64,000 nt of DNA. Source: Pseudooceanicola endophyticus. GTDB taxonomy: Bacteria; Pseudomonadota; Alphaproteobacteria; Rhodobacterales; Rhodobacteraceae. The notes beneath the pieces are model-generated. The model was not told where the DNA came from. It ran no database searches and saw only the letters and a program-made list of their open reading frames with translations. The stretch's first letter is position 1; every line of letters starts with the position of its first letter. The stretch is from positions 124,001-188,000 of the forward strand of contig NZ_JAHIAB010000003.1 in NCBI RefSeq assembly GCF_018760365.1, read 5' to 3'. A program made the translations under genes and the position numbers. This document shows positions 9,681 to 44,370 of this stretch, piece after piece.

Positions 9681-9766
9681 GGCGCAGGGGCAGGGGATCA
9701 CGGCATCGTGTAGCCGGCTGGCGCACCGGGGTTTGCCCGCCGCCCCCGGCTTCGGCTATGGCCGGA

Positions 9767-9937
9767 GCGTGATGGTTCCCGGTCCGGGAACAATGGGAAT
9801 GCGGTGCGGGTTTCGCGACCCAATGCCGTGACTGCCCCCGCAACTGTAGGCGGAAAGTCCGCGTCACCATGGCCACTGGGCAACTGGGAAGGCCGGCGCC
9901 GGGCGCTGATCCGCAAGTCAGGATACCGCCATCACGC
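9767..9937 (+). promoter_or_regulatory. Cobalamin (B12) riboswitch upstream of the NiCoT transporter
   Basis: Closing stem P1 is GCGTGATGG (9767-9775) with CCATCACGC (9929-9937). Inside are the conserved blocks AATGGGAATGCGGTGCGG, CTGCCCCCGCAACTGT, GCCACTGGGCAACTGGGAAGG and AAGTCAGGATACC, in the order of the Rfam cobalamin aptamer. It ends about 75 bases before the transporter ATG. It should lower transporter expression when B12 is plentiful. No clear U-tract terminator follows, so control may be on translation. Confidence 0.95.
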
Positions 9938-10011
9938 CATGGTCTGCGCAGCCGCGCCGGACGGGGTGTTCCGGGGTCTGGCCTTGCGGAGACGACCAGC
10001 AGAGAGGGCAC

Positions 10012-11076
10012 ATGTCCAGCCTCGTTTCTTCCTCCGGCGCCAGGGGTCTGCGCCGCCGCGTCAGCGCGATCTACGTCTTTCTCATCCTGTTCAACCTCGG
10101 CGCCTGGATCTGGGCCTTCGTGGCGCTGGACGGCCAGCCGCTGCTGCTGAGCGCGGCGGCGGTGGCCTGGGGCTTCGGCCTGCGCCACGCGGTCGATGCC
10201 GATCACATCGCCGCCATCGACAACGTGACCCGCAAGCTGATGCAGGAGGGGCGCCGCCCGGTGACGGTGGGGCTGTTCTTTGCCCTGGGCCATTCGACGG
10301 TGGTGCTGCTGGTCTCGGTTCTGGTGGGGCGGGCGGCCATCGTGCTGCAGGGGCAGGCGGCGGGCTGGCAGGCCATCGGCAGCGCCTTCTCGACCTGCAT
10401 CTCGGCGCTGTTCCTGTTCCTGATCGCGGGGATGAACATCGTCATCCTGCGCGGCGTCTGGCGCGCCTTCCGCGACCTGCGCCGCGGCCTGCCCTATGCC
10501 GAGGAGGATCTGGACCTGCTGCTGGGCAACCGCGGCCTGCTGGCGCGGCTGGTCCGGCCGATGTTCCGCCTGGTGTCTCGGCCCGTCTACATGCTGCCGC
10601 TGGGCTTCCTGTTCGGGCTGGGATTCGACACCGCGACCGAGGTCAGCCTGCTGGGCATGTCCGCCCACCAGGCGGCGCAGGGGGTGTCGATGTCCTCGAT
10701 GATCGTGCTGCCGGTGCTGTTCGCCGCCGGCATGTCGCTTGTGGATACCACGGACGGCATCCTGATGCTGGGGGCCTATGAATGGGCCTTCCTGAAACCG
10801 GTGCGCAAGATCTACTACAACCTCTGCATCACCCTGGTCGCGGTGGTGGTGGCGGTGCTGATCGGCGGCATCGAGGCACTGGGCCTGCTGGGCCAGGAGC
10901 TGGACCTGACCGGCGCGCCCTGGCGCCTTGTCGGGGCGCTGAACGACAATTTCGACAATCTTGGCTTCTTGATCATCGGGATCTTCCTGCTGGCCTGGGT
11001 GCTGTCCTACGCGATCTACCGGATGCGCGGATACGACCGGCTGGACCCGGTGCGCCTGCCGGCGGACCGGGGCTGA
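10012..11076 (+). CDS. NiCoT family nickel/cobalt transporter, probably cobalt
   Basis: 354 residues. The NiCoT signature RHAVDADHIAAIDN is at 58-71, in transmembrane segment 2, with the metal-selecting H-x4-D-H, and the second family motif LGFDTATEVSLLG is present. Eight hydrophobic segments and a large cytoplasmic loop are visible. GAGAGGG lies upstream of the ATG. The cobalamin riboswitch before it points to cobalt, needed for the corrin ring, as the physiological substrate rather than nickel. It stands alone, with no cbiMNQO genes nearby. Confidence 0.93.
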   Translation: MSSLVSSSGARGLRRRVSAIYVFLILFNLGAWIWAFVALDGQPLLLSAAAVAWGFGLRHAVDADHIAAIDNVTRKLMQEGRRPVTVGLFFALGHSTVVLLVSVLVGRAAIVLQGQAAGWQAIGSAFSTCISALFLFLIAGMNIVILRGVWRAFRDLRRGLPYAEEDLDLLLGNRGLLARLVRPMFRLVSRPVYMLPLGFLFGLGFDTATEVSLLGMSAHQAAQGVSMSSMIVLPVLFAAGMSLVDTTDGILMLGAYEWAFLKPVRKIYYNLCITLVAVVVAVLIGGIEALGLLGQELDLTGAPWRLVGALNDNFDNLGFLIIGIFLLAWVLSYAIYRMRGYDRLDPVRLPADRG

Positions 11077-37697: not shown

Positions 37698-38486
37698 TTA
37701 GGGCTGGAAGCCGCCTGCGGGCTGGCCGGGCAGGGTGGTGCTGGATCCGAAACCGGGGAAGGCATCGCCTCCGGGTCCGGCGATCACCGGAGGGGAGCCG
37801 GGCCCTCCCATGGCCCCCGGGGGCGGCGCCAGCACCGGCGCATAGGGCACTCCCGGCGGGTTGATCGCGGCCAGCCCGCCATAGAGCAGCCCGATGGCCA
37901 CCAGCCAGCTGCCGGCAATGCGCCCGCCGATCCGCCCGACCCTGAGCGGCAGGCACCCCAGCAAGAGCGCGGCCGTCAGCGGCAGCCAGAGGCCAAGTCC
38001 GGCGCCCAGCAGCCGGATCGTCACATCGCCCGAGGCCGCGCTGGGGTCGTACAGCACGATGGAGGCGCCGCAGGCCGTCCCCGCCAGCAGCGCCAGCGGC
38101 GGCCCCAGCACTGGCAGGGCCCGCCAGCCCGCCAGCAGCGCCCCGCCGATGGCAAGAACCGAGGCCGGGAACAGCAGGAAATGGTGGGACGTCGCCCCGG
38201 GGATCTGGCCGATCAGCGCAAACAGCCCGCCCGAGAAAAAGATCCCCAGCCCGATCCCCGCCGCCCAGCCCAGAAAGACCGTGCCGGTGCTGCGTCGGGA
38301 CATCTGGCTCAGGGCAAGGCCCAGCCCCAGGCCCGGAACCAGGAAGGCGGGGTGCAACCCGCTTTGCATCAGCCATTGTGCCACCGGCGCCGGGGCCAGA
38401 AACCCGCAGAGCGTCAGAAGGGCCGCGCCCGTCAGGAGGCACGCAATCGCCGCCCCAAGGCGCGGGCCCAGGCCTTCAGGCCACAA
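37698..38486 (-). CDS. Integral membrane protein of unknown function, next to hupE
   Basis: About 262 residues if translation starts at the TTG overlapping the hupE stop (TTGTGGCCTGA); the start is uncertain because no ATG fits. Seven or so hydrophobic segments are visible, with two conserved-looking His (SHHFLLFP) and a Pro/Gly-rich C-terminal tail (PPGAMGGPGSPPVIAGPGG). I do not recognise the family. Translational coupling with hupE suggests a shared role, perhaps in metal handling. Confidence 0.6.
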   Translation of the reverse strand: MWPEGLGPRLGAAIACLLTGAALLTLCGFLAPAPVAQWLMQSGLHPAFLVPGLGLGLALSQMSRRSTGTVFLGWAAGIGLGIFFSGGLFALIGQIPGATSHHFLLFPASVLAIGGALLAGWRALPVLGPPLALLAGTACGASIVLYDPSAASGDVTIRLLGAGLGLWLPLTAALLLGCLPLRVGRIGGRIAGSWLVAIGLLYGGLAAINPPGVPYAPVLAPPPGAMGGPGSPPVIAGPGGDAFPGFGSSTTLPGQPAGGFQP

Positions 38487-39090
38487 GGTAGCCGATCCCG
38501 CACAGCGCAATAACCCCGCCCAGCAGACGGCAGATCCGACCCTGCCACAGCGGCCCCAGCAGCAGACCGACCCCGACACCGATGACATGGATCAGCCCTG
38601 TGGCGACAACAAAGCCCACGGCGTAATCGGCGGGGTTTGCCGCCAGCGGCAGCTCGGCCCCATGGGCATAGCCGTGACACAGCGCGAAAAAGCCGATGAT
38701 CGCAAGAGAGGCCCACTCCTGTGGTTTCCAGGCCAGCGCAATCGCCGCGCCCAGCACAAGGATCGACAGGGCGATGCCGGTCTCGATCCCGGGCACCTGA
38801 AGACCGGCAATGCCGACGATGCCGCCAATCACCATGACCATCGGGAAGGTCACGGGAAGGGTCCAGACCCGGCGCCCACCCATCTGCGCCCCCCACAGCC
38901 CGACCGAGAACATCGCCAGGAAATGATCGTAGCCGGTAAAGGGATGCTCGAACCCGGCACTCAGCCCGCCGCTGCCGGTGGGCACGATATGCGCCGAGGC
39001 ACTTTGCGCCCCCGCCAGCATCAGAAACAGAGCAAGAGGCGGCAGCGACCGAAGCGAAGGCGGCAGGGATCGGGGCAGGGAAAGCGACAT
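38476..39090 (-). CDS. hupE: HupE/UreJ family protein
   Basis: 204 residues with a signal peptide (LPPLALFLMLAGAQSASAH). The HupE/UreJ signature is FEHPFTGYDHFLAMFSVGLWG (H-P-x-G-x-D-H), with further His in CHGYAHGAELP. Six membrane segments follow. Family members are proposed nickel or cobalt permeases linked to hydrogenase or urease genes, but none is nearby here. The ATG at 39090 gives a proper signal peptide. A 110-base leader with several short complementary runs precedes it. Confidence 0.85.
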   Translation of the reverse strand: MSLSLPRSLPPSLRSLPPLALFLMLAGAQSASAHIVPTGSGGLSAGFEHPFTGYDHFLAMFSVGLWGAQMGGRRVWTLPVTFPMVMVIGGIVGIAGLQVPGIETGIALSILVLGAAIALAWKPQEWASLAIIGFFALCHGYAHGAELPLAANPADYAVGFVVATGLIHVIGVGVGLLLGPLWQGRICRLLGGVIALCGIGYLVA

Positions 39091-39924
39091 GGGCAGGCCT
39101 TTTCTGGAACGTGAACGCAGAAAGCCGTCTTCGGTCGGGAAGGGCAAGTCCCCGTTGTCCCGCAGCCCCTCACGGGGTGTCACCTTCCGCTGAGAGACGC
39201 ATCCGTGACGCGCCGCCCCGGTCTGCGTGCTTACTTTGGCAGAAGGCGGGCAAGGCGCTCCGGGCGTGACCCCTGTCTTATTCTCCGGGGGGTGCGCTGG
39301 GTCATGGACCGAAATCCCAATATCTCTCTCGCACGCATGGGCCTGTCCTGCCGGGATAGGCTGTCCGCCCTGCCTGACCGTCCCAGATTGCGCCTCCTGC
39401 ACGCCTGCCGCGCCAAGGCGCACTCTCTTGTGGTTCTGCGCTTTGGATCAGGCAGAAAATGGCATTGCCTGTCTTTGCAAAGCCTGGGGACTTGTCGACC
39501 TGCGAATTGCAAATTTCGGAAAGGGGTCGGTTCCTGCGCGGTGCAGGTCAAGATCCCGCGCTTTTGGCTCCGTGTCGGGGGCATCGGCGGGCCTGTCCCG
39601 GCTGCGGCGCAGCGCTGGGCCTGATCGGGCCCGGTCCGGCACCGGGTCCCGTTTCCCGAGGCCCGCGCATGTTCGCCTCAGCGTCCGACTTTGCGGCCCT
39701 TGGCAAGGGGCCCGTATGCCGGAACCAAGTGCTTCGGCGATCCGGGGGCCGTCGCAGGGACGCGCTGGGGACAGATCCCCTTTCCGACGCCGGCAGCATT
39801 TCGGTGGTGGCGGAGGGGAGGGTGACCTTTGGAACATTATAGGAGCATCAAGTGTTCACCAAAAGTTCCGGATCTGATCGGTGGGATCAAATGGAGAACA
39901 TCCCCGAGCGGCCCTGGGTTGGGC
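39091..39924. other. Long gene-free region between hupE and nrdF
   Basis: About 830 bases on which no reading frame shows protein-like composition. The longest open frames (39227-39877 and 39459-39842) are rich in Arg, Gly, Cys and Pro without family motifs. The right part contains less GC-rich patches (near 39490-39525). The stretch nearest hupE can form CCCC-GTGA-GGGG. It may hold the hupE promoter and possibly a small RNA, but nothing can be named. Confidence 0.45.
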
Positions 39925-39955: not shown

Positions 39956-41102
<1,147 letters not shown>

Positions 41103-41111
41103 GAAGCCCGG

Positions 41112-43244
41112 TTACAGGGTGCAGGACACGCAGCCCTCGACCTCGGTGCCCTCAAGTGCGGTCTGGCGCAGGCGGACGTAGTAGATCGTCTTGATGCCCT
41201 TCTTCCAGGCCTGGATCTGGGCGCGGTTGATGTCGCGCGTGGTGGCCTCGGCCGGGAAGAAGAGGGTCAGCGACAGGCCCTGGTCGACGTGTTCCGTTGC
41301 CGCAGCGTAGGTGTCGATCAGCGCGTCCGGGCCAATCTCGTAGGCGTCGCGGTAGTAGGCCAGGTTCTCGTTGGTCATGAAGGGCGCAGGGTAGTAGACC
41401 CGGCCGATCTTGCCTTCCTTGCGGATCTCGATCTTCGAGACGATCGGGTGGATCGAGGAGGTCGCATTGTTGATGTAGCTGATCGAGCCGGTCGGCGGCA
41501 CCGCCTGGAGGTTGCGGTTGTAGAGGCCATGGGTCATGACTTCCGTGCGCAGTGCCTCCCAGTCGGCGCGGGTCGGCAGGGTGACATCGGCAAAGAGCGC
41601 CTGGACGCGGGCACTTTCGGGCAGCCAGTCACGGCTCGTGTACTTGTCGAAGAACGTGCCCGAGGCATAGGTCGAGGTTTCGAAACCGCGGAAGCTTTCG
41701 CCCTTTTCCCGCGCCAGTGCGCAGGAGGCGCGGATCGCGTGATAGGCGACGGCGGCAAAGTAGACCGAGGTGAACTCGATCCCCTCGGGGCTGCCGTAAT
41801 GGACATGCTCGCGCGCGAGGTAGCCGTGCAGGTTCATCTGGCCGAGGCCGATGGCGTGGCTTTCGTCATTGCCGCGGCGCACCGAGGGCACGCTGTCGAT
41901 GGCCGACATTTCCGACACGGCCGTCAGGGCGCGGATCGCCGCCTCGACCGTGGCGCCAAGGTCCGGCCCGTCCATCGCCTTGGCGATGTTGAGCGAGCCG
42001 AGGTTGCAGCTGATGTCGGTGCCGAGGTGGTCGTAGGAGAGATCGTCCTTGAAGGTCGAGGCCTCGTTGACCTGAAGGATCTCGGAGCACAGGTTCGACA
42101 TGGTGATGCGGCCCGCGATCGGGTTCATCCGGTTCACCGTGTCTTCGAACATGATGTAGGGATAGCCGCTCTCGAACTGGATCTCGGCCAGGGTCTGGAA
42201 GAAGGCGCGGGCGTTGATCTTCTTTTTGGCGATGCGCTTGTCATCGACCATCTCGGCGTATTTCTCGCTCACCGAGATTTCCGAGAAGGGCACGCCGTAG
42301 ACCTTTTCCACGTCATGGGGCGAGAAGAGGTACATCTCTTCGTTGCGCTTGGCGAGCTCGAAGGTGATGTCGGGGATCACCACGCCGAGCGAGAGCGTCT
42401 TGATGCGGATCTTCTCGTCCGCGTTCTCGCGCTTGGTGTCGAGGAAGCGCAGGATGTCGGGGTGGTGGGCATTCAGGTAGACCGCACCGGCGCCCTGGCG
42501 CGCGCCCAGCTGGTTGGCGTAGCTGAAGCTGTCTTCCAGCAGCTTCATGATCGGGATCACGCCGGAGGACTGGTTCTCGATCCCCTTGATCGGGGCGCCG
42601 TGCTCTCGGATGTTGGTCAGCATCAGGGCCACGCCGCCGCCGCGCTTGGAAAGCTGCAGCGCGGAGTTGATGCCGCGGCCGATGCTTTCCATGTTGTCCT
42701 CGAGGCGCAGCAGGAAGCAGGAGATCAGCTCTCCTCGGCTTTTCTTGCCGGCGTTCAGGAAGGTGGGGGTGGCGGGCTGGAAGCGGCCCGAGAGGATCTC
42801 TTCCATGAAGGACATTGCCAGCGCCTGATCGCCGCGTGCGAGCGCCAGCGCGCACATCACCACCCGGTCCTCGTAGCGTTCCAGGTAGCGTTTGCCGTCG
42901 CGGGTCTTCAGCGTGTAGCTGGTGTAGTACTTGAAGGCGCCCAGGAAGGTCGGGAAGCGGAACTTCTTCGCGAAGGCGGCGGCCCAGATCTCGTGCAGGA
43001 AGGCGGTCGGGTAGGCCGCCAGGACCTCGGCCTCGTAATAGCCCTGCTCGACCAGATATTCGAGCTTTTCGTCCAGCGAATGGAAGAACACCGTGTTCTG
43101 GTTGACGTGGGTCAGGAAGTACTGGCGCGCGGCCAGGCGATCGGCCTCGAAGCGGATGTTGCCGTCCGCATCATAGAGGTTCAGCATCGCGTTCAGCGCG
43201 TGGTAGTCGAGCCCCTCGGTCAGGCTGTCGTTGCGGTCGAGCAT
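41112..43244 (-). CDS. nrdE: Class Ib ribonucleotide reductase alpha subunit NrdE
   Basis: 710 residues from the ATG giving [20 protein letters not shown]; family length about 700. Active-site Cys regions are [15 protein letters not shown] and [15 protein letters not shown], and the C-terminal redox pair is GCVSCTL, which NrdH would reduce. There is no N-terminal ATP cone, as expected for NrdE. It overlaps the nrdI stop by 25 bases, so it is translationally coupled. It makes deoxyribonucleoside diphosphates in the cytoplasm without needing B12. Confidence 0.95.
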
Positions 43245-43642
43245 GGGGTCCCCCAGAAGGCGGTCAGCCCGTCGCGGATACGGGCAAGGTCGGTGTCGGT
43301 GCCGGCGAGCTCGAACTTGGTGAGCATCGGCACGGCGCATTTGCGGGCGATGACATCGGCGGCCAGCCCGTAGGTGGCGCCGAAGTTGCGGTTGCCGCCG
43401 CCGATGACGCCCCGGATCAGGGCGCGGCGGGCGGGATCGTTCAGAAAGCGGATGACCTGCTTGGGCACCGCACCGCGCCCCTCGCCATCGGCGAAGGTCG
43501 GGCAGATCAGCACGTAGGGCGCGGTGATGTCGGGCATCTCCTCTTTCGGCGAGACGGGGATGCGCAGCGCCGCGCCGCCCAGCCGGGCGACGAACCGGGC
43601 GGTGTTGCCGCTGGCCGAGGAGAAATAGACGAGGCCCGCCAT
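43220..43642 (-). CDS. nrdI: Class Ib ribonucleotide reductase assembly flavodoxin NrdI
   Basis: 140 residues from the ATG giving [20 protein letters not shown]. The flavin-phosphate loop SSASGNT and [17 protein letters not shown] are NrdI hallmarks. It supplies oxidant for assembly of the dimanganese-tyrosyl radical in NrdF. It lies 11 bases after nrdH and overlaps nrdE by 25 bases. Confidence 0.93.
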
Positions 43643-43653
43643 CGGGACGCCGA

Positions 43654-43878
43654 TCAGGCGGCGAGGCGGCCGATCATGTCGGGGCGGAAGCCCGACCAGT
43701 GATCTTCGCCGGCGATCACGACGGGGGCCTGGCGATAGCCCAGCTCGGTCACGCGGGCCATGGCTTCGGCGTCCTGGGTCAGGTCGACGACCTCGTAGGA
43801 CAGGCCCTTGGCATCCAGCGCGCGGGTGGTGGCGGTGCATTGCACGCAGGCGGGTTTGGAATAGACGGTGATGCTCAT
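43654..43878 (-). CDS. nrdH: Glutaredoxin-like protein NrdH
   Basis: 74 residues, the usual NrdH size. Redox motif C11-V-Q-C14 in [14 protein letters not shown], cis-Pro in RQAPVVI, and C-terminal [12 protein letters not shown] match NrdH redoxins, which accept electrons from thioredoxin reductase and reduce NrdE. First gene of the operon. GAGGA precedes the ATG. The leader upstream holds a cobalamin riboswitch. Confidence 0.94.
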
Positions 43879-43992
43879 CGCGGCGTCCTCATGGTCCTGG
43901 AAGGGAAGGACGCAGGCCAACCGGACGGCCTCGCCGTCAGATCCACCTTAGATGCGCCCCCGAACCCTCCGTTCGTGGTCAAATCCTGTGCT

Positions 43993-44158
43993 CCTGGCAG
44001 GTCTCCTGGCTTGCGGCCTGCTCCCGTTCCGCCGGTCCGGAGCCCCGGTGGCAGTCGGGCCCGTGCGGACCGCTCACAGTTGCGGGGGCAGCTTCGGCTT
44101 TGACAGTGGAGTCGCACCGAATTCCCATTTTCACCGGGGCAAGCCCCGGCACCTGAAG
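43993..44158 (-). promoter_or_regulatory. Cobalamin (B12) riboswitch upstream of nrdHIEF
   Basis: On the minus strand the leader reads CTTCAGGTGCC, then AATGGGAATTCGGTGCGACTCC, GCTGCCCCCGCAACTGTGAG, ACTGCCACC and finally GCAAGCCAGGAGACCTGCC, all canonical cobalamin-aptamer blocks. CAGGT/ACCTG closes P1. It ends about 115 bases before the nrdH ATG. That interval contains two hairpins (CGAAC-GGAGG-GTTCG near 43961-43975 and GACGGC-GAG-GCCGTC near 43924-43938), possible expression-platform elements. Binding of B12 should turn the operon down. Confidence 0.96.
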
Positions 44159-44294
44159 CGGCTACATGTAGACAGGAGCTTGGCGGCAACGTCAATATGC
44201 TGATTTCGCGGGGCCGCTTTTTCGCCTTCCGGCCTTGCGGGACAAGGGCTTTGCGGCACGGTCGCGCGACGGATCGGAAGGGGGGAGAGGAAGG

Positions 44295-44370
44295 TGGTAG
44301 GCCCGGCAGGATTCGAACCCGCAACCAAAGCGTTATGAGCGCTCTGCTCTAACCGTTGAGCTACAGGCCC
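44295..44370 (-). tRNA. tRNA with CAT anticodon, probably tRNA-Ile2 (lysidine-modified)
   Basis: A 76-base cloverleaf including an encoded CCA. Acceptor GGGCCTG pairs with CGGGCCT (first pair G-T), D arm GCTC...GAGC, anticodon stem GAGCG/CGCTT around loop CTCATAA, T arm GCGGG-TTCGAAT-CCTGC. The TTAGAGCAG start and CTCATAACGC loop context resemble bacterial minor tRNA-Ile with CAT rather than elongator or initiator Met. The isotype call is by similarity. Confidence 0.9.

Follow-up and report, generated by a model that had tools for sequence, protein, structure and literature searches.

Why should the operon of a B12-independent ribonucleotide reductase carry a cobalamin riboswitch in its leader? 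The question is raised by a nrdHIEF operon on the minus strand of a 64,000-nucleotide stretch of Pseudooceanicola endophyticus DNA (hereafter the window). All four proteins of this single operon score above their curated cut-offs—the glutaredoxin-like reductant NrdH (43654-43878; TIGR02194, 100.6 bits against 85.75), the flavoprotein for NrdF assembly NrdI (43220-43642; TIGR00333, 143.3 against 74.65), the large subunit NrdE (41112-43244; TIGR04170, 1205.4 against 750), and the small subunit NrdF (39956-40930; TIGR04171, 474.6 against 355)—which bears out the original prediction of a class Ib system. That prediction was drawn over 43220-44158, a range that covers nrdI, nrdH, and most of the leader, ends 13 nt before the 5' end of the aptamer, and omits nrdF entirely along with most of nrdE. 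Judging from its family, the enzyme would use a Mn(III)2-tyrosyl or an Fe cofactor, and manganese use by NrdF is consistent with what is known of class Ib. The operon is flanked on the same strand by a gene for a HupE/UreJ protein (38476-39423; PF04955, 182.9 bits), whose family has ties to nickel/cobalt transport, about 530 bp past nrdF, and by a tRNA gene (44298-44370) with a CAU anticodon, as read from the alignment, that ends 127 bp ahead of the aptamer.

We searched the leader with the Rfam cobalamin model, the check attached to the original prediction, and recovered the full aptamer that had been claimed: RF00174 matches at 44171-43979 (minus strand) with 96.4 bits (gathering score 31.5; cmscan, E = 9e-23), spans model positions 1-189 of 189 uncut, and ends 100 nt from nrdH. 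The copy, which is row L027 of our leader comparison, keeps the L5 stretch, the B12 box, and a downstream GGNGG hairpin, and is predicted to bind cobalamin. The GGGAAG part of the conserved CCACTG...GGGAAG internal loop is missing, however; this element is kept in 18 of the 18 other aptamers of alignment A2 and in 50 of the 55 rows of the larger leader comparison, and where the window reads CCGGACC, all 18 others read a CCGGGAAG-type sequence. Because the pattern is also missing from two further leaders (L058 and L094), it is not strictly defining for a cobalamin riboswitch, though B12 control may be weakening in the lineage of the window.

The surrounding genome, a 5.2-Mb assembly in 46 contigs, encodes the B12-dependent isozymes on which the original prediction hinged. 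Our search for nrdJ returned two class II reductases, so that the refuting case named with the prediction, a genome without nrdJ, did not arise. One, a NrdJ of about 1244 residues, shares the contig of the window (NF005736, 2198 bits, cut-off 1737); the other, of 761 residues, lies on another contig (TIGR02504, 600.8 bits, cut-off 399.95). NrdF was the only class I small subunit found. The proposed switch from class II to class Ib when B12 falls is thus supported on its genomic side. Given two B12-dependent reductases, the riboswitch probably turns the spare enzyme on only at B12 shortage. No B12-independent methionine synthase reached its cut-off in this genome, the one partial match scoring 101 bits against 929.95.

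Scoring 150 of 474 first-look candidates gave a lower bound of at least five cobalamin riboswitches in the genome. Besides the one before nrdH, these precede a nickel/cobalt transporter NiCoT (TIGR00802), a CbiM-like gene followed by cobW and cobN, a periplasmic binding protein (PF01497), and bluB; since these four lead into cobalt/B12 genes, nrdHIEF alone among the five targets lies outside cobalt/B12 supply. Directly behind the five riboswitches found, we recognised no manganese uptake gene, only nrdH and the cobalt/B12 genes. The window itself holds a second cobalamin riboswitch (9756-9947, plus strand, 102.6 bits) that the original prediction did not mention, and the gene behind it (10012-11076, plus strand) encodes a HoxN/HupN/NixA-type nickel/cobalt transporter.

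Within the family, a class Ib NrdE is an optional feature: it exceeds the cut-off in 17 of 149 sampled genomes (genera), and 11 of 22 genomes of the window's genus match the nrdH part of the query. A riboswitch lies beside nrdHIEF in 13 of the 17 class Ib family genomes (Rfam). All 38 genomes checked from the family and genus encode a class II reductase, so the family offered no NrdJ-less genome for comparison. Scanning with 13 aligned NrdE proteins yielded 80 named loci, whose leaders were scanned with a covariance model built from 19 aptamers and whose genomes were searched for class II reductases. Leaving out L117 (only 644 bases upstream) and L092 and L108 (no genome), 77 loci were usable; three genomes occur twice among the loci (L063/L028, L069/L023, and L047/L134), and two decayed aptamers (L047, 37.6 bits; L056, 80.2 bits) were counted as riboswitches, whereas L068 (11.9 bits) was not. 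On this count, a riboswitch precedes nrdHIEF in 53 of 59 NrdJ-bearing genomes and in 0 of 18 NrdJ-less genomes; the six NrdJ-bearing exceptions are all Paracoccus, 18 loci have neither feature, and none has a riboswitch without NrdJ. An Rfam recheck of the 24 riboswitch-less loci found no cobalamin match. Five Paracoccus operons (L054, L061, L062, L066, and L086) in NrdJ-bearing genomes have no cobalamin match whatever, and riboswitch-bearing nrdHIEF operons also occur on plasmids, as in Paracoccus aestuarii and Marinibacterium anthonyi.

Broader draws gained few contrasts, as class Ib turned up in 5 of 385 class-level and 29 of 398 phylum-level genomes. A separate set was taken from these two levels; NrdJ was looked for in 30 new genomes and leaders were fetched for 20 of them. 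Here the riboswitch was present in 5 of 9 genomes with NrdJ above the cut-off, in 0 of 9 without it, and in 0 of 2 where the class II match fell below the cut-off. Class Ib loci without a riboswitch in NrdJ-bearing genomes thus number ten in the near sets (6/59 and 4/17) and 4 of 9 in the separate draw. As the riboswitch is found, in the genomes compared, only beside NrdJ, yet not always, NrdJ looks necessary but not sufficient for it, and on this comparative side too the predicted class II to class Ib logic is supported.

How the aptamer might act on nrdH was examined in 47 leaders with a short aptamer-to-nrdH distance, 20 of 67 rows having been dropped (12 long leaders, 4 decayed, and 4 without a recognised start). 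In all 47, a GGNGG-looped hairpin comes after the aptamer, and its stem varies by paired substitutions (for example CGAAC/GTTCG, CCGTGC/GCACGG, and CCGGAC/GTCCGG); in the window it occupies 43975-43961 (minus strand), with the stem CGAAC/GTTCG and the loop GGAGG (43970-43966). Its mean score is 5.1, compared with 0.71 in shuffled flanks, a contrast that somewhat favours the observed value, as this is the best of the candidate loops with one bulge allowed and the null has a fixed loop. The hairpin is probably P13/L13, the element that kisses L5.

Further downstream, the Shine-Dalgarno strand of nrdH can pair with a strand 11-58 nt upstream in these leaders. In the window, the anti-Shine-Dalgarno strand GCGTCCTT (43913-43906, minus strand) and the Shine-Dalgarno strand GAGGACGC (43890-43883) would form eight pairs in the predicted OFF state. 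Two tests of this helix, both of which ignore kinship among the leaders, compared each leader's own strand with those of the others. By duplex energy, the weaker test, own strands averaged -14.23 and cross pairings -13.26 (reached by 40 of 10000 permutations), with a median rank of 14 of 47 for the own strand; by contiguous stem, a second and later-chosen measure that gave the stronger result, the values were 16.12 and 14.80 (10 of 20000 permutations and 0 of 200 shuffles reaching the observed value). Folds of the window leader that hide and free the Shine-Dalgarno sequence differ by 0.2 kcal/mol (-47.9 against -47.7). An antisequestor formed by the bases after the hairpin and the anti-Shine-Dalgarno strand can be drawn in the window, but covariation across the 47 leaders fails to support it (the observed mean is reached in 1643 of 20000 permutations), and we do not claim it.

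Other leaders of this kind are built differently near the start codon. In 22 Hyphomicrobiales-type leaders (L087-L107, L110-L112, L116, and L118), a short ORF of 11-21 codons lies between the aptamer and nrdH; its ATG comes after a conserved context of the type CTTCGGGGTGAAGTC in all 22 examined, and its stop lies 98-224 nt upstream of nrdH. The encoded peptides are unlike each other, so it is the start site that is conserved. Four Stappiaceae-type loci (L073, L074, L078, and L081) have a similar context ahead of nrdH itself.

A second input may act at the promoter. NrdR boxes are described as 16-bp palindromes, two per promoter and mostly 15-16 bp apart (PMC12176259, PMC12051234). Using a consensus for these boxes, we located two probable boxes on the minus strand of the window leader: box 1 (44190-44205), the last six bases of which form a -35-like TTGACG (44195-44190), and box 2 (44159-44174), 31 bp from it, which overlaps both a -10-like TCTACA (44172-44167) and the 5'-most bases of the aptamer. 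The pair is the best in the leader, with a score of 26.0 that 1.0% of shuffled leaders reach, and its position near the promoter, with the boxes about three helical turns apart, is that of an NrdR site as far as a sequence match goes. Across leaders, 76 of 78 exceed the 95% level of shuffled leaders, and box centres 31 bp apart are the commonest spacing (53/78). The boxes overlap the promoter, which accounts for part of this signal; bases ahead of TTGAC are conserved as well (of 51, 46 have C at -7, 41 have A at -5, and 44 have T at -2). A strict sigma-70 scan did not find a promoter in the window leader. Each of the two class II genes also has a similar box pair upstream (2/200 and 0/200 shuffles). 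NrdR is predicted to bind the window boxes, and the nrdHIEF promoter is probably also under its control—a feature that, like the weakened aptamer motif, was absent from the original prediction. More speculatively, and with somewhat less than even confidence, we suggest that the alphaproteobacterial nrdHIEF leader is a two-input gate in which box 2, lying on the -10 and the aptamer start, lets dATP/ATP (through NrdR, on DNA) and B12 (on RNA) be read at one place, and that the Hyphomicrobiales riboswitch controls the start of the short upstream ORF rather than of nrdH.

Taken together, we consider it likely that the operon is a B12-repressed class Ib backup for the class II enzymes, governed by a riboswitch that hides the Shine-Dalgarno sequence and by a promoter under probable NrdR control. 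Ligand binding, the direction of control, and its translational mode are inferred, as is binding by NrdR. When plentiful, adenosylcobalamin would be bound by the aptamer, and the bound form would hold the GGNGG hairpin in its kissing contact, leaving the anti-Shine-Dalgarno strand free to pair with the nrdH Shine-Dalgarno and the operon untranslated. When B12 falls, for example under cobalt limitation, nrdH would be freed and class Ib could take over from the failing class II enzymes, with NrdR, a sensor of ATP/dATP, probably acting on the promoter as well. As a class II reductase is present in all 38 family genomes checked, DNA synthesis in the family leans on B12; a B12-controlled class Ib operon would then be an optional escape from B12 or cobalt shortage. 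Such an operon would also be a simple and testable example of cofactor choice by a riboswitch, in which an essential step runs either on cobalt or on manganese or iron.

This reading has to be set against three others. Riboswitch and NrdJ could be paired through shared ancestry alone, with no functional link among related alphaproteobacteria. The NrdE tree lends this idea some weight, as it holds 2 changes in NrdJ and 3 in the riboswitch, with 1 well-supported independent pair (2 on all branches)—changes so scarce that the association falls short of statistical proof. We nevertheless regard descent alone as a very improbable explanation: the aptamer is kept across many diverged leaders, in three groups NrdJ-less genomes lack it, among them Pseudochrobactrum beside Brucella relatives and family f174, where one genome has neither feature (G695) and two have both (G662 and G853), and published examples of this arrangement come from other classes and phyla (PMC3848588, PMC545781). 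Alternatively, the window aptamer may be losing its function, the operon turning B12-insensitive and NrdR becoming the main control of nrdHIEF. Apart from the missing GGGAAG motif, this would fit Oceanicola sp. S124, the best named NrdE match to the window (89%), which appears to belong to the same genus judging from identical NrdJ places: its aptamer is decayed (37.6 bits, model R1), with several conserved motifs gone and with a B12 box and L5 stretch that no longer match. The leaders of Mangrovicoccus algicola and Paracoccus caeni are also decayed. Against such a loss stand the 96.4 bits of the window copy across the full model and its retained L5 stretch, B12 box, and hairpin, which make it an unlikely account of this locus. 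In the decayed loci themselves (L047/L134, L056, and L068, respectively), nrdHIEF is intact and the riboswitch has been lost while NrdJ persists.

The remaining alternative accepts the riboswitch and places its action on transcription, through intrinsic or Rho-dependent termination in the leader instead of hiding of the Shine-Dalgarno sequence. The antisequestor expected of a translational switch found no support, the result for the Shine-Dalgarno helix is modest, and a Propionibacterium acnes nrdAB operon with a cobalamin riboswitch sees transcription end ahead of its first gene (PMC3848588). A terminator scan, however, found no terminator-like site in the window leader, the single site recovered (against 0.7 expected) lying in nrdI, and the Shine-Dalgarno helix adjoins the nrdH start codon; control by termination therefore strikes us as doubtful. 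With a conserved hairpin, a possible Shine-Dalgarno helix, and no terminator found in the leader, translational repression of nrdH is the best reading, which we hold with moderate confidence.

The B12-repressed backup that we favour has clear precedents. In Streptomyces, Borovok and co-workers reportedly described a riboswitch before nrdABS by which a B12-repressed class I reductase backs up the class II enzyme; as in the window, a class I reductase is the reserve, but it is of class Ia and from an actinobacterium. Our literature search found nothing on a riboswitch before alphaproteobacterial nrdHIEF, although the original papers on B12 elements lay outside it and we do not claim novelty. The principle of B12 elements before B12-independent reductases was in print by 2004: one report places such elements before NrdDG in genomes that also have NrdJ and proposes the same logic, citing earlier work (PMC545781). 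This delta-proteobacterial system shares with the window a cobalamin riboswitch on a B12-independent reductase beside NrdJ, but concerns the class III NrdDG rather than the aerobic class Ib NrdHIEF of Alphaproteobacteria (PMC545781). In P. acnes, nrdAB and nrdDG are likewise preceded by cobalamin riboswitches and carry nrd-boxes at their promoters (PMC3848588). There, too, riboswitch and NrdR-type boxes are joined on B12-independent reductase operons beside NrdJ, though in other reductase classes and another phylum, and most nrdAB transcription ends before the first gene, whereas translational control is favoured for the window (PMC3848588). With the principle already published for other reductases, the window operon is a class Ib, alphaproteobacterial case of a known control, in a form common to many alphaproteobacteria.
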